From contig JAUWHO010000045.1 of the NCBI GenBank assembly GCA_030605835.1, forward strand, positions 1-64,000: a stretch of 64,000 nucleotides of DNA. The letters are read 5' to 3'. Source of the DNA: Candidatus Zixiibacteriota bacterium (GTDB lineage Bacteria; Zixibacteria; MSB-5A5; DG-27). The notes below the pieces were generated by a model. That model worked only from the letters and a program-made list of their open reading frames with translations. It ran no database searches and was not told where the DNA came from. Shown here piece by piece: positions 9,485-62,784 of the stretch. A program made the translations under genes and the position numbers. Numbering within the stretch: the stretch's first letter is position 1; each line of letters begins with the position of its first letter.

Positions 9485-9519
9485 GCCTGCCGGGCAGGAG
9501 GAGGCAGGCTTTTTTTTAT
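9485..9519 (+). terminator. Rho-independent terminator after tRNA-Glu
   Basis: Stem GCCTGCC (9485-9491) with GGCAGGC (9503-9509), followed by a run of eight T and ATT. Placed 9 nt after the tRNA 3' end. Confidence 0.8.
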
Positions 9520-9778
9520 TTTCTCCAAGGGAATAGGAAATAGTAGATAGGGAACAGGGAACAGGGAACAGGGGACAGGAGATAGGGAATAGGGAATAGG
9601 TAGTAGAGTTGGAGGAGGGTTGTAGAGGAAACCTTCAGGTTTCCACAATTGAGCTCCTAAAAGAATAGGTCGGGCATTCTTGCCCGACTGCCTGTCAAAG
9701 GGTGGGGGTTCAACCCCCACCCTAGCTACTTGTTCCCATCCTAGGTGTTTGTAGTTTCCAAAGGGAAATCTCACTGTT

Positions 9779-9822
9779 GGTCACGGCCATACGGCTCGTA
9801 CGAGATGCCCTCATCCGTGACC
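9779..9822. repeat. GGTCACGG palindrome interrupted by an 18-bp insert
   Basis: GGTCACGG (9779-9786), then the 18-mer CCATACGGCTCGTACGAG (9787-9804), then ATGCCCTC and ATCCGTGACC (9805-9822). Deleting the 18-mer gives exactly the reverse complement of the uninterrupted 26-bp repeats at 22993-23018 and 62718-62743. The same 18-mer with one change interrupts a different repeat at 23048-23065. Confidence 0.9.
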
Positions 9823-9914
9823 TTTCTGGTATCGGACGGGGCGTCCGATGCCAACGTGTCGGGCAATCAGCTTAATTTGCTTAATCTTGCCTGCCTCTGG
9901 CATGGCTGTGAATA

Positions 9915-10007
9915 TACGGTGCCGTCAGGTCTTTTCCGCCGAAGGCGGATCCTTCGGACGACCTGACGGAAGTGTCAGGAGGTCGCCTCAGGCGACCTGA
10001 CACCACT
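9915..10007. repeat. Twin-hairpin composite repeat, copy 1
   Basis: First palindrome CCGTCAGGT...ACCTGACGG with a long loop that itself folds (TCCGCC/GGCGGA). Second palindrome GTGTCAGG...CCTGACAC, with loop TCGCCTCAGGCGA. The first 68 bp (9915-9982) are identical to 10155-10222. Confidence 0.9.
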
Positions 10008-10154: not shown

Positions 10155-10260
10155 TACGGTGCCGTCAGGTCTTTTCCGCCGAAGGCGGATCCTTCGGACG
10201 ACCTGACGGAAGTGTCAGGAGGAAACTCCTGACACCACGTAATGGGAAACTCCTGACACC
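10155..10260. repeat. Twin-hairpin composite repeat, copy 2
   Basis: Identical to copy 1 over 68 bp and exactly 240 bp downstream. The second palindrome here has the short loop GAAA (GTGTCAGGAG-GAAA-CTCCTGACAC), and a partial second arm AACTCCTGACACCAC is repeated at about 10247-10261. Confidence 0.9.
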
Positions 10261-21009: not shown

Positions 21010-21038
21010 AATATATGAAGCCCGTACGATTATGTCAA
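21010..21038 (-). promoter_or_regulatory. Consensus sigma70-type promoter of the ccm operon
   Basis: Read on the minus strand: TTGACA (21038-21033), a 17-nt spacer, TATATT (21015-21010). This is a perfect -35, optimal spacing and a near-perfect -10, placed 48 bp upstream of the ccmA ATG. Confidence 0.75.
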
Positions 21039-21039
21039 G

Positions 21040-21570
21040 CTAACTAGCAACCAGCAAGCAGTAAAGAGGAAACAGGAAACAGGAGACAGGGAACAGGGAA
21101 CAGGAGATATGAGATAGGAGATAGGAGATAGGTTGCAGCGGAAACCTTTAGGTTTCCAAACATGGCAGACAGCAGGCAGGAAACGGGAAACAGGGGTCAG
21201 GAAACAAGACACGTAAGACAGGGAACAGGGAACAGGGAACAGGGGTAGGGGAGCCCACTTACCACTTTGCGTTGCGTCAGGACCGAAGTCCCCCTGAGGC
21301 GGACGTGTCCTGACGCCTATGCCGTCGGGACTCACCCGTCGCGCCGGGTTCCGGTCCCGACGGAACCGGAAAAAAAGCAGGAGACATTGGATAGTCGCCG
21401 GAGGCGACCCGCCTCTGGCGGGGAAACAGGGAACAGGGAACAGGAAACAGCAGAGAGGAGATAGGAGATAGGTTGTAGCGGAAACCTTTAGGTTTCCAAA
21501 CATGGCACACAGCAGGCAGGAAACAGGAGACAGGGGACAGGAAACAAGACACGGAAGACAGGGAAAAGCG
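21040..21570. repeat. Intergenic repeat island 2
   Basis: Low-complexity tracts of GGGAACAGG/GGAAACAGG/ATAGG units (about 21057-21130, 21170-21242, 21420-21475, 21515-21566). They surround two near-identical ~65-bp copies (21119-21183 and 21459-21523, offset 340 bp) of a unit containing the GGAAACC/GGTTTCC palindrome. Between them are two palindromes, GCGTCAGGAC/GTCCTGACGC (21274-21316) and CCGTCGGGAC/GTCCCGACGG (21322-21363), of the same design as those at 10067 and 10107 but with other loops. Confidence 0.88.
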
Positions 21571-21654
21571 ATCGGCGCGATAGTGTGGACTGTTCGGAGG
21601 TTTCAGTCACAACTTACCCTTCAGCGGCAAAAAAAATCTCTTTTTCGGTGATAA

Positions 21655-22911: not shown

Positions 22912-23034
22912 ATGGAATAAAACCCAGCAGGTGCCACGTTCAGCGGGAGGCCACTTCGTGTTGGTATCGGGCGCCACGTCCGGTACCGAAAGGGTCACGG
23001 ATGAGGGCATCCGTGACCAACAGTGCTGCTCTTT

Positions 23035-23070
23035 GGAAACTTGAAGGCCATACGGCTCGTATGAGTTTCC
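23035..23070. repeat. GGAAACC palindrome interrupted by the 18-bp insert
   Basis: GGAAACTTGAAGG (23035-23047), the 18-mer CCATACGGCTCGTATGAG (23048-23065), TTTCC (23066-23070). Without the 18-mer this is the GGAAACCTGAAGG-TTTCC repeat seen intact at 62767-62784, apart from one C/T change. The 18-mer is itself palindromic (CATACG/CGTATG). Confidence 0.88.
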
Positions 23071-23236
23071 GCTACAGGCCGACTCCGGGGCAGGAATGCT
23101 CCGGCTATGCATGGATGTTTGTTTTATCCGAATAGGCTGGGCTGACCAGCCCAGCCTTATGTGTGGCGTCAGATGCCCCGTGGGATACACAAAAGGTCAC
23201 GGATGAGGGCATCCATGACCAACAGTCGTAGCCTTT

Positions 23237-23275
23237 GGAAACCTGAAGATTTCCGCCCGATCGGTTGAGGTTTCC
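23237..23275. repeat. GGAAACC palindrome interrupted by a different 20-bp insert
   Basis: GGAAACCTGAAG (23237-23248), 20 bp containing the palindrome CCGATCGG (23249-23268), then GGTTTCC (23269-23275). Removing the 20 bp restores the intact repeat. Allowing for base ambiguity, the insertion point is the same as in the copy at 23035-23070. Confidence 0.85.
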
Positions 23276-23359
23276 AGTGCTCTCGGTGTTTTCCTCCCGA
23301 CAGAGACCGCCAAGTCGTCCGAAGGATCCGCCTTCGGCGGAAAAGACCTGACGGCACTG
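23276..23359. repeat. Twin-hairpin composite repeat, inverted copy
   Basis: Reverse orientation of the units at 9915, 10155, 31176 and 37611: a degenerate TCGGNG/CTCCCGA-type palindrome followed by CGTC...GACCTGACGGCAC, with the same TCCGCC/GGCGGA inner hairpin as copies 1 and 2. Confidence 0.8.
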
Positions 23360-23388
23360 GAAGTCAGCGCTTCTGCGACGCTATGTGA

Positions 23389-33149: not shown

Positions 33150-34760
33150 GTGAAGCGATTGCTGTTGCTGTTTTTCCTACTCACGCTTTCAGTCGCAAGC
33201 GCCACCGAAAGAAAGGTGGTGGCAGTCTTACCTTTTACGAATCTAACGCACGATGAGACCACCGCCTGGCTGTCTGAGGCGATACCCGCTACACTGACCT
33301 CCAAGTTGGGGAGAGTCTCTGCACTTGAGTTGGTGCCGCGGGTTCGCATGAACGATTTTTTCTCGATAATCGAGCTACAACACACAAGTACGATAGATGA
33401 CGAGACCGCCGTCAAGGCCGGAGAGACCTTCGAGGCGGAGATAGTCGTTGCCGGAGAGTATCTGAAGGGAGGCAGCCAGATCAAGATAGCCTGTAGATTC
33501 CTCGACACGAAATCGGGACGGGTTCTGAACGCTGCCGAAGTGAACGGCCCTTACTCAGACATATTCAGGCTGCAGGATGAGCTGACGTTCGACTTGTTTA
33601 AAACCCTGGAGGTGATTCCCACCCCAGAGGAAGAGGCAAAAATAGTGGAGGTGCCCACCCAATCGCTGGAGGCGTACGAGTGGTTCAGCAAGGCTCACTA
33701 TGAAAGCACCAAAGATCTCGTCAAAATCAATCTGATAATCGACTATTATCGCAGGGCGGTTGAATTCGACTCTACCTACTTCGATGCTCACAGCAACCTG
33801 GGACTGGCATACGCCGGCAGAGGTTTTCTGGACAAGGCCATTCAGGAACGCAAGAAGGCGTTAAAGATCAAACCGAATCATGCCGAGGCTCACGCCAATC
33901 TGGGGGCTGCTTATTATGTTAAAGGACTTTTCGACGAAGCGATCAGCGAATTCCAGAAGGCCTTGGGAATTCGACCCGATTACCCCGAGGTTCACAACAA
34001 CTTAGGACTAGCTTACGCAGGCAAGGGCCTTTTGGATGATGCCATTCGGGAATACAAGGAGGCCTTGAGGATCAACCCGGAAGATGCCCAGGCGCACACG
34101 AATCTGGCGACGGCATACCATCTCAAGGGTCTTTTGGATGAGGCCGTTGGGGAGTTCAGGGAGGCCTTGAGGATTAAGCCACGCCACCTCGATGCGCGCA
34201 TAGGTCTGGGGCGCGCTTACGAGGCTGAAGGTCTTCTGGATGAAGCCATGCTGGAGTATGAGGAAGCTTCGAGCATCAATCCGGATGACGCCAAGGCTCA
34301 CGGTGCCCTCGGAAATGTTTATGCAAGAAAAGGGCTTCCCGATGCCGCCATCGGGGAATGGCAAGAGGCGGTGAGGATAGATCCCGATTTCGCCGGAGCT
34401 CATTACAACCTGGCGATTGCTTACAAGGGTACAGGCCTTTTGGACGACGCCATAACGGAGTTCAACGAGGTCTTGCGGATCTATCCGGATGATCTCGGGG
34501 CTCACTATAATCTGGGAAATGTGTATGTATACAAAGGCCTTCTGGATGATGCCATTCGAGAATACAATGAGGCCATAAGGATTAAGCCGGATCACACCGA
34601 TGCCAATTACAATCTGGCGTTGGCGTACGAATACAAGGGGGACCGACAAACGGCTTTAGAGCAGTGGAAAAGATACGTGGAAGTCGCTAAGGATAGGTTC
34701 GACCAGGCACAGTCGATTCGAAAGGCGAGAGAGCGCATCAAAGCATTACAGGGGGAATAG
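33150..34760 (+). CDS. Exported TPR-repeat protein with FlgO/TolB-like N-terminal domain
   Basis: 536 residues. An N-terminal signal peptide (MKRLLLLFFLLTLSVASA) is followed by a ~130-residue domain (VVAVLPFTNLTHDETTAWLSEAIPATLTSKLG...VVAGEYLKGGSQIKIACRFLDTKSGRVL) of the kind that precedes TPRs in FlgO-like and TolB-N proteins. From residue ~210 there are nine clear 34-residue TPRs (consensus AHxNLGxAYxxKGLLDDAIxEYxEALRIxPDx), and the last residues are helical. It probably acts as a periplasmic scaffold for protein-protein contacts. GTG start, supported by AGGAGG at 33136-33141. Confidence 0.85.
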   Translation: MKRLLLLFFLLTLSVASATERKVVAVLPFTNLTHDETTAWLSEAIPATLTSKLGRVSALELVPRVRMNDFFSIIELQHTSTIDDETAVKAGETFEAEIVVAGEYLKGGSQIKIACRFLDTKSGRVLNAAEVNGPYSDIFRLQDELTFDLFKTLEVIPTPEEEAKIVEVPTQSLEAYEWFSKAHYESTKDLVKINLIIDYYRRAVEFDSTYFDAHSNLGLAYAGRGFLDKAIQERKKALKIKPNHAEAHANLGAAYYVKGLFDEAISEFQKALGIRPDYPEVHNNLGLAYAGKGLLDDAIREYKEALRINPEDAQAHTNLATAYHLKGLLDEAVGEFREALRIKPRHLDARIGLGRAYEAEGLLDEAMLEYEEASSINPDDAKAHGALGNVYARKGLPDAAIGEWQEAVRIDPDFAGAHYNLAIAYKGTGLLDDAITEFNEVLRIYPDDLGAHYNLGNVYVYKGLLDDAIREYNEAIRIKPDHTDANYNLALAYEYKGDRQTALEQWKRYVEVAKDRFDQAQSIRKARERIKALQGE

Positions 34761-35120
34761 CCCACCACCCCCCATCCCAACCAGCAAACAGTCGCCGTAG
34801 GCGATCCGCCTCAGGCGGGCAAACAGTAGACAGTAGACAGGGAACAGGGGACAGGAAAACCGCCCACCTGGGTAGCCCGGTGGCCTCCGCCACCGGGACC
34901 TGATCACGCCGTTTGGAAAACCACGGCAGTAATGTTCACTGTTTGTGAAAACGTAGTGCGGGGAATTCATCCCCGCATCCGCCTGGGTGGGATAAATTCC
35001 CACCCCTACGGATTGTGTTCTGGCGGTTTGGCAAACGCCCTCCGCCTGTAGTGTGGGGAATTCATCCCCGCTTGGGTGTTGGGGCAGGGGTTCAACCCCT
35101 GCCCCAGCGAATGTGCGTGC
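34761..35120. repeat. Intergenic repeat island 5
   Basis: 360 bp with no gene. A short GAACAGGGGACAGG tract (about 34825-34857) and a CCCGGTGG/CCACCGGG palindrome (34876-34898). Two CGGGGAATTCATCCCCG-type palindromes preceded by GTAG (34953-34976, 35048-35071), GGGTGGGATAAATTCCCACCC followed by CTACGG (34986-35011), and GGGGCAGGGGTTCAACCCCTGCCCC (35080-35104). Confidence 0.85.
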
Positions 35121-41809: not shown

Positions 41810-44800
41810 ATGATGGGAACATCTGAAGCTAGACGAGAAAGATCTAAAATTGTGTTTATGGCCACCCTTCTGGCCGGTGCTTGCCTTCTCACTTACTTTT
41901 TTCATGAGGTACTGAAGTACGAGGGATTCTATACCCATCTATTCTATATCCCCATAATTCTGGCATCTGTTTGGTGGAAGAAAAAGGGCATAATTATCAG
42001 TCTTTTTTTGGCGGGACTGCTGATTTTGAGCCACATTTTCTTTAGAACTGATGTGGCGATTCTTACTGACCTCCTTCGAGCTTCTGTGCTCATAGCTATT
42101 AGTGTTTTTGTCGCCATATTGAGTGAACATATTGCGAAGGCGAAGGAGGCGCTGCGGGGGAGCGAGGAGCGCTTCTCTGTGGTGCTGCACAACTCCAGAG
42201 ATATGGTTTACAGACTTCATCCCAAGACCGGCAAGTTCGATTATGTCAGCCCGTCGGCAATAGAGCTAACCGGCTTCACCCCGGGGGAGTTAACTCTTAT
42301 GGGTCTTGAAGGGGTTATAGAGAGGATAGACCCTGAGGATAGAGACCGTTTTATGGTGCACTTCGAGAATGTGCTCAAACAGACTTTCGAGGACGGTCTG
42401 GCGCCGACAATCGAATACCGCTGGAAGCATAAAGAGGGTGAATACCGATGGTTCAGTGATAACCGCGCCGTCATTCGCGATACAGACGGCAACCCGGTGA
42501 GCCTAATCGGCAGCGTCCGGGACGTCACCGAGCAGAAGGTGGCGGAGTGGGCTTTATGGGAATCGGAGAAGAAGTACCGCACCATGGTTGAAACCGCCCA
42601 GGAGGGAATCGGGATAACTTCGCTCGGGGAGGAGCTTGTTTTCGTCAACAAGGCATTTGCCTCCATATTGGGATATGAGCCCTCAGAGCTGGTGGGCAGA
42701 AACCTCCGCGAGTTCGTGACCGAGGAACGGTTCGAGGCCTTCCAGATGGAGACCGGGAAGAGACAGTGGGGTACCTCCGGCGGCTACGAAACCGAGATGC
42801 GCCATCGGGACGGAAGCCACCGCTCTCTTCTGGTCTCGGCCTCTCCCCTCTACGATCGCGAGGGTAACTACAATGGCACCCTCGGGATGGTGACTGACAT
42901 CACCGAGCGCAAGAAGGCGGAGGAGGCTCTGCGCGAAAGGGAAAAGAGGTATAGAGACACAACGGAGAATACCTTGGAGTGGATTTGGGAGGTTGACGCC
43001 AATGGCAAATTCACTCACACCAGCCCTGTTGTCGAGAAGATCTTAGGTTATAAACCGGAGGAGGTACTTGGAAAGCATTTTTATGACCTATTCGATGCTG
43101 AAGACCGCGAAGAACTGAAGAAGGTGGCGTTTGAAGCCTTCGCCAAAAAGGAGTCGTTCCGCGAGTTCATAAACCGTAATGTGCACAAGAACGGTGAAAC
43201 AGTTTGGCTCTCGACAAGTGGAGTTCCCATACTCGATGAAGCAGGAAACCTTCTCGGATATCGAGGTGCTGATACGGACATCACCGAGCGCAAGAAGGAG
43301 CAGGAGATTCAGTCGGCATTATTCAGGATTTCTCAAGCAGTCACCTCCACGGGCAACCTGGAGGAATTGGTACAGACTGCCCACGAAGTGCTGGGTGAGT
43401 TGATTGACACCACCAATTACTTTGTTGCCCTCTATGATGCCGAGAAGGAAGAGTATTCCTTCCCCTATAGTGTTGACCAGGACGAGGAAACAGATTTTTC
43501 GACACGTCAACTCAAAAAAAGCCTCACCGACTATGTCCGCAGAACTGGAAGGCCGCTTCTGGTAGATGAAGAAACCAACAAAAAGCTAATGGAAAAAGGT
43601 GAAGTAGAGTTAGTAGGGAGACCGGGACCCATCTGGCTCGGTGTGCCCTTGAAGACCCCGCGGGGTGTCATTGGGGTTGCCGTAGTTCAACACTACTCAG
43701 ATCCGAGCGCTTACTCAGAGGCTGATCTTGACATCCTGTCATTTGTCTCCGGGCATCTTGCAGTGGCAATTGAGCGTAAGCGCGCGCAGGAGGAGCTGCA
43801 GGAGAGTGAAGAGAGATATCGGGACCTGTTTGAAAACGCCAGTGACCTTATTCAGAGCGTGGCCCCGGACGGTCGCTTCGTATACGTCAATCGAGCGTGG
43901 AGGGAGGCCCTAGGTTATAGCAAGGAGGAAATCGCCGGGCTCAACATGTTCGACATCATCCACCCCGATAGCCGAGCGCACTGCACGAAGGTGTTTCAGC
44001 GTGTGCTCTCCGGCGAACAGGTTCATAAGGTTGAAGCTCTGTTCGTTGCGAAGGGGGGGAACGAGATCCTGGTTGAGGGGACTGCCAACTGCAAGTTCGT
44101 AGACGGAAAGCCGATTGCCACCAGGGGCATTTTCCGTGATATCACCGAGCGCAAGCAGGCGGAGGAGGCGCTGTGGGAAAGCGAGGAGAAATACCGGCTG
44201 GTGAGTGAGAACATCCCCGTTGTGGTTTATTCAGCACTGCCTGATGAACATTCTACTACTACTCTAATTTCCGGAAGAATCATGGAGCTTACCGGATATT
44301 CTCATCAGGAATTTGTGGAACATGTGGAGTTGTGGACACAGATCATTCATCCGGATGACCGAGAGTATGTGTGGAAAAAAATCGAAGAGCACCGTGAGAA
44401 GATGGCACCGCTTGATGTCGAGTATCGGATAACAACTAAGGACAATACCGTCAAATGGATAAGAGATAGAGCGACACCAATGGTTGACGAAAATGGGCAG
44501 CTCATCAGAATCAACGGTTTCATGGAAGACATCACCGAGCGCAGGAAGGCGGAGGAGGAGGTCCGGGAAGCGATGGAGTTCAGAGAGCGTCTTCTGGCTT
44601 CGATGCATGACGGATTGTCTGTGCTCGACAAGGACGGGGTACACATTGACGTTAACCTCGCACTGTGCGAAATGACGGGCTTCTCCAGAGAGGAACTGAT
44701 CGGTGTTGGGCCGCCGCACCCTTACTGGGCCACGGAGTCCTTGGAAGATACTAAGAAAGCATTCGAGAAGACCGTGCGTGGTGAATTTCAGACCTTCGAG

Positions 44801-47800
44801 TTGACCTTCATGCGCAAGCAGGGGGAGCGCTTCCCAGTCCTGGTCAGCCCTTCCTGGTTGAAAGACGAGCACGACAACGTTCTGTGTTACTTCGCTACCT
44901 TCAAGGACATCACCGAGCGCAAGCGGGCGGAGGAGAGAATCAAACAGCAGAGCGAGTTCTTGAAGAGCACAATAGAAGCTCTTGCTCATCCATTCTATGT
45001 CATAGATGCCAATGACTACACGGTCAAGATGGCAAATTCAGCCGCGGGCTTTGGTGCTCTGTCCGAGAAGTCAACCTGCTATGCTCTCACTCATAGACGC
45101 GAGGAACCGTGTGAAGGAGAAGAGCATCCCTGTCCCCTTAGGATCGCCAAGGAAACCAGGAAACCCGCGATCGTAGAGCATACTCATTATGATGAAGATG
45201 GGAATGCCAGAATCTTCCAGGTTCACGGCTATCCGATCTTTGATGATGAAGGAAACGTTGTCCAGCTTATCGAGTACACCCTTGACATCACCGAGCGCAA
45301 GAAGGCGGAGGAGGCAGTACAGAAGACCGCGGCGGAGTGGGAGACCACATTCAACTCCATCAGCGACTTGGTTTCTGTTCATGATAACGATTTCAGGTTT
45401 ATCCGGGTCAATAAGGCTTTTGCTGATCTGCTCAAGATGAAGCCGGAAGAGCTGGTGGGCAAAAAGTGTTACCAGGTGGTTCATGGGAGAGAGAGCCCTC
45501 CCGCAGATTGCCCTCATAAGCAGCTGCTGGAGAGTAAGAAAGCAGTGACCTCGGAATTCTTCGACCCTCATCTGGGAGCTTATCTGCAGGCGTCTGCCTC
45601 ACCAATCTTTGACGAAGATGGCGAGGTTGCCGGCTGCGTCCATATTGTCAAGGACATCACCGAGCGCAAGAAGGCGGAGGAGGCGCTGCGGGAGAGCGAA
45701 GAACGTTTGAAAGAAGCGCAGAGAGTCGGAGCAGTTGGCGACTGGGTGTTCGATGTCCAAACCCAGCAGATCACCTGGTCGGAACAAGTCTACAGGCTCT
45801 TCGAGCGTGACCCGGCAAAGGGTCCTCCAGACTATGAAGAGAACATGGCATACTATTACCCGGAGGATTCAAAAAAGCTGCAGGAGCAGGTGCGCCGGGC
45901 GATAGAATTTGGGGAGGAGTCTGATGCTGACTATCGTTTGAAGCTGCCAAGCGGGAAGTCTGTCTATCAACGTGGTCTCATCAGGACAATAAGAGACGAA
46001 AATGGAAAGATTGTGAAGCTGTTTGGCACGGTGCAAGACATCACCGAGCGCAAGCGGGCGGAAGAAGAATTATCAAAGGAAAGAGCCCTGCTTAAGGCCA
46101 TCATTGATAAGATTCCGGTATTGCTCACCCAGTATGACCCCGACACCAATATGCTGTATTTAAATAAAGAGTTTGAAAAAATAGTTGGCTGGAAAACCGA
46201 AGAAGTTAAAGATATCGACCTGATGGAAAAGGTATATCCCGACCCGGATTACCGCAAACAAGCCATGGAGTACATGCAAAAAGCCAGTACGGAATGGCGT
46301 GAATTCCGGGTTCAGTCCAAATCCGGAAAAATAATTAATTCAGAATGGTCAAACATTCGTCTGGATGATGGGACCCAGATAGGTATCGGAATAGACATCA
46401 CCGAGCGCAAGAAGGCGGAGGAGGCGCTGCGGGAGAGCGAGGCTGAATACCGTTCCCTGTTCGAGAATATGCTGGACGGTTTCGCTTACTGCAAAATGAT
46501 TGTTGACGAGAACGACAAGCCCATAGATTTTGTGTACCTTGAAGTCAACGAGGCCTTTGAGAGATTGACGGGGCTGAAAAGGGAAAATGTCGTCGGGAAA
46601 AAAGTAACGGAGGCCATACCGGGCACAAGAGATTCACATCCGGAGCTGTTGGACACATATGGCAAAGTTGCCTCCACCGGTAAAGAGACCAGATTTGACA
46701 TCCACTTCGAGCCTTTAGACATATGGCTCTCCATTTCTGTCTATTGTCCAAGAAAGGGTTATTTCGTTGCTGTTTTTGACAACATCACCGAGCGCAAGAA
46801 GGCCGCGGAGGCTGTGAGAATCTCAGAAGAGCAGCTTAGAGCCATCTTGGACAGCGCCGACGATATTATCTTCGCTAAAGACCGGGAGGGGCATTACACC
46901 CGAGTCAATTATGCGTGCGCCCGACTACACGGAATCTCCGAAGAGGAGTTCGTCGGCAAGACAGATTTCGACCTCTTTCCAGAAGAGCAAGCAAGACACT
47001 CAGCCGAAATCGACCGTCAGGTGCTTGTGGAGGGAAGAACCTTCACCGGCGAATACGACAGACAAATAAGAGGCAAGACACTGACATTGAGCATGGTCAA
47101 GACGCCTCTGCACGGACCCGATGGTTCAACAATCGGTTTGTGTGGTATTGCCAGGGATATAACCGAGCAAAAAAGCTTGGAGGAGCAGTTCCGCCAGGCG
47201 CAGAAGATGGAGGCTCTGGGAACTTTAGCGGGGGGCGTTGCTCACGATTTCAATAATCTTCTGGGAGGCATTCTCGGCTACGTCGGCCTGATGAAAGGGG
47301 ACTACTCACCTGAGGAGAAACACTACGCTATGTTAGAGCTGGTTGAGAAAGCCAGTATGAGAGCTGCAGAGCTGACCAACCAGCTCCTGGCCTTCTCCAG
47401 AAAGGGGAAATACGAGCTACGAGCGGTTGACCTGAACAACAGCGTCGAAGATGTGTTGAAGCTGCTCGGCAGGACTCTGGACAAAAACATTGAGATCGCA
47501 ACCGAGCTTCAGGAGAAGCTTCCCTCCGTTGAAGGTGACCCCGGCCAACTCGAACAGGCCATCATCAACCTCTGCGTAAACGCTGCCGAAGCTATGCCCG
47601 GCGGCGGGAAGCTCCAGTTAGAGACCAGAGTGGTGGCCTTAGAGGAGGAATTTGCCCGCAAGTATCTCGGCTCCGACCCCGGGGATTACGTCCTTTTGAG
47701 CGTGTCCGACACCGGCATCGGAATGGATTCTGAAACCCTGTCCCGGATGTTTGAGCCCTTCTTCACCACCAAGGAGATGGGAAAGGGGACCGGTCTGGGG

Positions 47801-62558: not shown

Positions 62559-62687
62559 TGCTAACAGGCCTATAATTAATGTCAAAGAGGTTCAAAAGGC
62601 AAGTGATTGTTGAGACCAGAGCCGCATTGGAGCTCCTTCATTTCGGGCTGCGGTCTAAGCCGCGCCAGAGGCGGACATCAGCCCGTT

Positions 62688-62784
62688 GGTATCGGACGCC
62701 CCGTCCGATACCCAAAAGGTCACGGATGAGGGCATCCGTGACCAACAGTAGTGCGTGGTGGCTTTTGGAAACCTGAAGGTTTCC
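62688..62784. repeat. Composite palindrome unit, intact copy
   Basis: GGTATCGGAC.../GTCCGATACC (62688-62712), CAAAA, GGTCACGGAT.../ATCCGTGACC (62718-62743), AACAGT, then GGAAACCTGAAGGTTTCC (62767-62784). It is the only copy with all three palindromes uninterrupted, and serves as the reference for the copies at 22963-23075, 23164-23275 and (inverted) 9757-9852. Confidence 0.9.

Follow-up and report, generated by a model that had tools for sequence, protein, structure and literature searches.

A discrete 18-bp hairpin insert at fixed points of REP and REPIN-like palindromes in a Zixibacteria genome

The window analysed here, a stretch of 64,000 nucleotides, comes from a Zixibacteria genome of 2.68 Mb; the sole other member of the same genus found is Zixibacteria bacterium DG_27. 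Repeats were surveyed by genome-wide pattern searches of the 53-contig assembly and in the loci fetched around the matches. Two families of palindromes recur in the window (Table 1). Palindrome C, in its empty form GGAAACCTGAAGGTTTCC, reads on the other strand as a GTAG-tagged REP, GTAGCGGAAACCTTCAGGTTTCC, with GTAG at the hairpin foot as in the GTAG superfamily. The second family is an inverted dimer of the GTTGGT type, GTTGGTATCG..CGTGACCAAC, whose A and B halves form two inverted REPs, as in a REPIN. Several other repeats are found in the window. Degenerate 7-bp units (AGGGAAC, AGGAAAC, AGGAGAT etc.) form arrays at 9518-9606, 21036-21256, 21404-21575 and 34818-34858, several of them adjoining palindrome C. 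A CGTCAGG-type hairpin repeat of 68 bp occurs in two identical copies 240 bp apart (9915-9982 and 10155-10222), and a related, inverted copy is present at 23307-23363. Eleven copies of a ACATCACCGAGCGCAAGAAGGCGGAGGAG-like motif at 42499-46816, spaced mostly 360-390 bp, are probably repeated sensor domains of one protein, and eight repeats spaced exactly 102 bp at 33818-34588 likely correspond to tetratricopeptide-type protein repeats.

Table 1. Palindromic repeats of the window, their inserts, and the RAYT gene on contig 40 (^, insertion point)
Feature	Position	Strand	Remarks
REPIN-like inverted dimer, empty	22960..23021	+	A half GTTGGTATCG.., B half ..CGTGACCAAC
5' part of host palindrome C, GGAAACTTGAAG	23035..23046	+	Consensus GGAAACCTGAAG^GTTTCCGCTACA, one C-to-T change here; GTAG-tagged REP on opposite strand
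18-bp insert GCCATACGGCTCGTATGA	23047..23064	+	Hairpin CATACG-GCT-CGTATG
3' part of host palindrome C, GTTTCCGCTACA	23065..23076	+	
Second REPIN-like dimer, empty	23164..23223	+	Degenerate
Second copy of palindrome C, GGAAACCTGAAGATTTCCGC	23237..23256	+	Uninterrupted; intact save one G-to-A change
Region of the formerly proposed second insert and second GGTTTCC	23257..23275	+	Flanking sequence, no insert
Empty palindrome C	9627..9644	-	
REPIN-like dimer with 18-bp insert in B half	9776..9855	-	Insert 9786-9803, + strand reading GCCATACGGCTCGTACGA
Empty palindrome C	21140..21157	-	TAAAG loop variant
Empty palindrome C	21480..21497	-	TAAAG loop variant
Empty REPIN-like dimer	62685..62746	+	Reference for uninterrupted form
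Empty palindrome C, GGAAACCTGAAGGTTTCC	62767..62784	+	
REP-associated tyrosine transposase (RAYT) gene, contig 40	L138 1246-1827		Basis NF047646

The original prediction for this DNA had proposed two GGAAACC palindromes interrupted at one position by different inserts. The first, at 23048, is borne out: the palindrome GGAAACCTGAAGGTTTCC at 23035 is split after GAAG by GCCATACGGCTCGTATGA, and 23035-23070 reads GGAAACTTGAAG, GCCATACGGCTCGTATGA and GTTTCC, after which comes the usual GCTACA. The second proposed site, 23249, holds no insert. Positions 23237-23256 match empty palindrome C and the first bases of its normal flank at 19 of 20 positions, the one difference being a G-to-A change. Over 24 bases the intact and insert readings tie at 20/24; the insert reading requires an extra 21-bp insertion, ends in GTTTCCAGTGCT without the usual palindrome C flank, and yields a supposed insert, CCGATCGGTTGAGG, that is present in no other repeat of the fetched DNA. 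An interrupted palindrome at 23249 was rejected given the intact copy with its flank and the non-recurrence of the putative insert. Two different inserts at one position is thus wrong for the pair at 23035 and 23249, because the latter reads as an intact palindrome; it is right elsewhere, in copies of palindrome C that hold 17, 18, 33 or 53 bp at one point.

The inserted unit is an 18-bp word, GCCATACGGCTCGTAYGA, that forms a single hairpin with a 6-bp stem and a 3-nt loop. Its 15-bp core has 15 matches genome-wide at no more than one mismatch and none in a reversed control. Each of the 15 near-exact copies interrupts a host palindrome at a fixed point, and the hosts are three: GGAAACCTGAAG^GTTTCC, GTTGGTCACG^GATGCC and GTTGGTATCG^GACGCC. 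Eight copies are in the B half of the REPIN-like dimer (GTTGGTCACG^GATGCCCTCATCCGTGACC), five in the A half (GTTGGTATCG^GACGCCCCGTCCGATACC or variants) and two in palindrome C. The point within each host is usually preceded by CG or AG, with G as the next base, and removal of exactly 18 bp gives back the host sequence. Chance similarity or decay of both palindromes, with no insertion at all, accounts for the 23249 site; as an explanation of both sites it is extremely improbable, being refuted at 23047 by the 15 dispersed near-exact cores against none in the control. Ambiguity at the junction amounts to one G, the first base of the insert and also the next base of the host, and any target-site duplication is at most this ambiguous 1 bp. 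The unit may accordingly be 17 bp long with a 1-bp duplication, as far as the letters at the junction can tell. No known RNA family in Rfam matches the word, and a search of viral contigs for phage carriage returned no match.

Palindrome C is mostly found empty. The pattern GGAAACCTGAAGN{0,40}GTTTCC has 21 matches in the genome, 20 of them uninterrupted GGAAACCTGAAGGTTTCC, and 33 empty copies occur in the fetched loci when mismatches are allowed. Its inserts in these loci measure 17, 18, 18, 18, 18, 33 and 53 bp, all preceded by GAAG (or AAAG/GAAA) and followed by GTTTCC or a variant. One 18-bp insert in palindrome C, GTTATATGACTGGTAGGA at L006, is a diverged copy of the word, and a 33-bp insert at L017 sits in a stem-variant host (GGAAGGCTGAAG^CCTTCC) with its inner module apparently inverted. 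A further host family of this genome is seen in L006 near 1116 (minus strand), where the loop variant CCCATACGGGTCGAACGA, of the type found in the WOR-3 phylum, lies in a GGAGTTCAACTC^CTGCCCC palindrome.

For the REPIN-like dimers a strict pattern recovered 11 empty copies, 8 with a filled B half (seven of 18 bp, one of 33 bp) and 1 with a filled A half; more filled A halves were seen outside the strict pattern. The insertion point lies 7 nt into the 11-bp stem and is confined to the outer arms, though the inner arms share the local sequence (strict pattern, 6 filled/35 empty outer arms vs 0/37 inner; p = 0.027 for copies that may be non-independent). Such a position speaks against replication slippage with template switching, in which a polymerase stalls in the palindrome, jumps to a word-bearing hairpin, copies the word and returns. 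As slippage would have it, insertion points do fall at or near stem-loop borders in three cases: palindrome C, the 18-bp hairpin and the 15-bp module described below. Predicted single-stranded DNA folds shift in opposite directions on filling, palindrome C becoming more stable (-7.6 vs -4.9 kcal/mol when empty) and the B half less so (-9.3 vs -12.4 kcal/mol), and therefore stability by itself does not account for which sites are used.

The word is itself a host. The 33- and 53-bp inserts are nested insertions within it: a 15-bp module, CCTGCCCGGCCAGGG and variants, sits at GCCATACG^GCTCGTATGA of the word, and a 20-bp module, TCCATACGGATCCGAAGGGA, sits inside the 15-bp module at CCTG^, with the boundaries of both set by sequence reading. 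At three loci (L007, L046 and L247) a long nested insert has palindrome C to its left and a REPIN A half to its right, in one configuration, and the inserts therefore also mark points of recombination or exchange. This strand exchange at the insert is compatible with slippage. The recurrence of one configuration also fits a single origin of the composites, by which the filled REPs that arose from one or a few ancient insertions were multiplied by their own RAYT while gene conversion kept the junction uniform. The near restriction of the CGTACGA spelling of the word to B-half hosts points the same way. However, filled and empty REPINs are equally diverse, and dimers with a filled B half form no clade separate from empty dimers (permutation p = 0.23), which suggests repeated insertion or exchange and not one amplified copy. 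Moreover, the host sequences, at least three here besides those of the WOR-3 phylum, share no clear junction homology, so that several host-to-host transfers would be needed. A single origin is consequently regarded as unlikely.

Related words were found in a second phylum. A genome scan for the 18-bp word, accepting G or C in the loop, covered 132 genomes of the same phylum and 147 of the WOR-3 phylum (records named WOR-3, TA06 and Stahlbacteria); the word is present in 2 of the former (the genome of the window and DG_27) and 6 of the latter. So patchy an occurrence suggests that the word spread horizontally. The two copies of DG_27 both interrupt palindrome C. In loci of the WOR-3 phylum, near-identical words add exactly 18 bp to other palindromes and to one non-palindromic repeat. 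For instance, the host CCATACG^GATG is empty in 7 instances, and the pattern CCATACG..GATGCTGTG has 15 sites with 15-20 bp at the point, those shown being mostly GCCCTACGGCTCGTATGA. At the CCATACG^GATGCTGTG site of a single genome (G056), one locus (L220) holds the inverted 18-bp loop variant GTCGTACGACCCGTATGG and another (L208) a 17-bp relative. Hosts of the form CTGCCTACC..GGCAGG are empty in 11 cases and filled in 3. Gains of exactly 18 bp are likewise seen in the host GCAACC(A)^GGAGGTTGC and in the non-palindromic target AACCG^CAGAG. The target motif CG^GAYG is common to both phyla. Another arrangement is found in the WOR-3 copy of L119 near 1501 (minus strand), where two word-like units, CCATACGGGTCGTATGA and CCTATACAGGTCGTATGA, stand in tandem in one host. 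Related words with more changes occur in GGGCCC-type contexts at five loci of Phycisphaerae GSL_GB14_14 (L103, L108, L114, L120 and L124), e.g. TCATACGACTCGTACGA after CCCATACG. Exact 18-mer matches in Pontibacillus, Enterococcus, Frigoribacterium, Actinobacillus, Anaerolineae and a Phycisphaerales bacterium (L068) were discounted as chance, since a rough calculation predicts about 15 of them for the collection searched; the contexts in Pontibacillus and in Enterococcus presumably represent pyruvate kinase genes, which they resemble.

Within the genus, the genes flanking the window sites align with those of DG_27 at 86-90%. DG_27 has 1.1 kb in place of the 474-bp intergenic region of the 23035 site, with neither repeat family in it, and the window genome's own counterpart of a DG_27 insert (L076) is a GTAG REP in the opposite orientation with no word. 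The repeats thus turn over quickly here. A clean pair of filled and empty sites at an orthologous locus, sought at these two loci between the genome of the window and DG_27, was not found.

Across many copies, then, the shared insertion point of the original prediction holds, with the reservation that one of the two sites on which it relied contains no insertion; inserts did not scatter over the repeat in the copies mapped, and different inserts sharing one point are seen in the WOR-3 palindrome CCATACG^GATGCTGTG, one of them inverted. Its placement of the point in a hairpin loop applies approximately to palindrome C, near the stem-loop border, and fails for the REPIN halves and for the one non-palindromic WOR-3 target. 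Of the mechanisms on a folded hairpin that it put forward, cleavage and joining is favoured. Simple slippage is disfavoured because the insertions are target-specific, involve one defined 18-bp sequence and are not confined to hairpin loops. Slippage should give locally templated inserts of variable content, whereas one exact 18-bp sequence is found in unrelated hosts and in another phylum, and microhomology at the junctions is just about 1 base; it is accordingly held to be improbable.

RAYT genes are present in the genome. The gene on contig 40 scores 118.5 bits against NF047646 (cut-off 80) and has GTTGGT REPIN palindromes on both sides, a REPtron arrangement in Zixibacteria. It is one of four Y1 loci of the genome, and the other three adjoin other palindromes. 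Palindrome C was found beside none of the four (0/4), and has no cognate RAYT among them. That the word might be a RAYT's own REP was rejected, as no Y1 gene examined in the genome or in the WOR-3 loci is flanked by it. The same observation is in keeping with movement by a recombinase or an RNA-templated (retro-) route separate from RAYTs, and RNA-mediated copying has been suspected for the GC clusters of yeast mitochondria (PMC4478555). The searches identified no candidate gene for such a route, which no result here favours directly and which is considered doubtful.

It is on balance probable that the word is a discrete nano-element, REP-like and non-autonomous, which an enzyme that processes single-strand hairpins puts in place. 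The reading as a mobile element is based on the many dispersed copies, the otherwise intact hosts, the several unrelated hosts and the filled sites, which include inverted forms. Insertion would take place on single-stranded folded DNA, either on the lagging strand or in an extruded hairpin, and a nuclease of the HUH/Y1 type (RAYT-like) would cut beside the hairpin foot and rejoin the ends. Filled hosts would then be copied on as REP or REPIN units and could recombine with one another, giving chimeric copies. Cutting and rejoining by such a nuclease is favoured because it fits the defined unit, the fixed point, the lack of duplication beyond 1 bp, the inverted copies, the preference for REP hairpins and the reuse of the word across phyla. 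TnpA-REP reportedly cleaves and rejoins REPs (PMC6006769), and a RAYT-type route is consistent with the RAYT genes of the genome, one of them flanked by the host REPIN palindromes. Against the enzyme stand the missing RAYT partner and GTAG tag of the word, and its single hairpin, much shorter than would be expected of a TnpA substrate or a single-strand circle. The requirement for a hairpin is unproven, since some WOR-3 targets are non-palindromic. The description of a discrete 18-bp insert at a fixed point is much firmer than the reading that invokes the enzyme. A bolder proposal, conceivable and short of probable, is that the word may be a hyperparasitic 18-bp hairpin that uses the single-strand machinery of REPs and RAYTs (or a similar enzyme), inserts into REP palindromes at sequence-defined points, offers its own loop to nano-inserts and has passed horizontally between Zixibacteria and WOR-3.

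With its defined target and its clear empty and filled host sites, the 18-bp insert acts like a mobile DNA element that ranks among the smallest on record, below the size of the bacterial mobile repeats in the literature cited here. Since two phyla hold near-identical words and a common CG^GAYG target, the way in which such tiny repeats move can be put to the test, and an enzyme that reads the word hairpin should be common to the few genomes that bear the word.

The word departs in part from each of several established classes. Like elements of the IS200/IS605 type it makes no target-site duplication, the 1-bp G ambiguity aside, but its 18 bp hold one hairpin in place of two subterminal ones. 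MITEs have terminal inverted repeats and target-site duplications and span 70-300 bp, in contrast to 18 bp and a duplication of at most 1 bp here. REPs have been found inserted in other palindromes in a few bacteria (PMC3733652). The host palindromes resemble the known REPs, REPINs and RAYTs (PMC3733652; PMC3116915; PMC6006769), in that palindrome C is GTAG-tagged and GTTGGT palindromes border a RAYT gene. Unlike REPs, the word carries no GTAG/GTGG (or CGTC) tag at its hairpin foot, has no RAYT partner and is a guest, not a host.

Another comparison is offered by SDR5, which in cyanobacteria is inserted at a fixed point of HIP1 (PMC4390886); Elhai et al. (2008), cited in PMC4390886 and PMC3733652, described it along with further small dispersed repeats from Nostoc and its relatives. 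The word is likewise a very small bacterial repeat module with precise insertion inside another repeat family, and it differs from the cyanobacterial SDR5 in its phyla, its REP and REPIN palindrome hosts, its several unrelated hosts and its nested insertion. In the organelle DNA of Volvox carteri, short palindromic repeats lie within other palindromes and build composites in both orientations (PMC2670323), as here; the word, in contrast, resides in bacterial chromosomes, at a fixed point and as a defined 18-bp unit. The GC clusters of yeast mitochondria are also short mobile palindromes that merge and shuffle, by a mechanism that is unsettled (PMC4478555), but they are accompanied by AG or ACT direct repeats resembling target-site duplications, whereas the word shows at most the ambiguous 1-bp G. 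Compared with these known kinds, the word is smaller, occurs in other phyla, uses several hosts and is itself nested.
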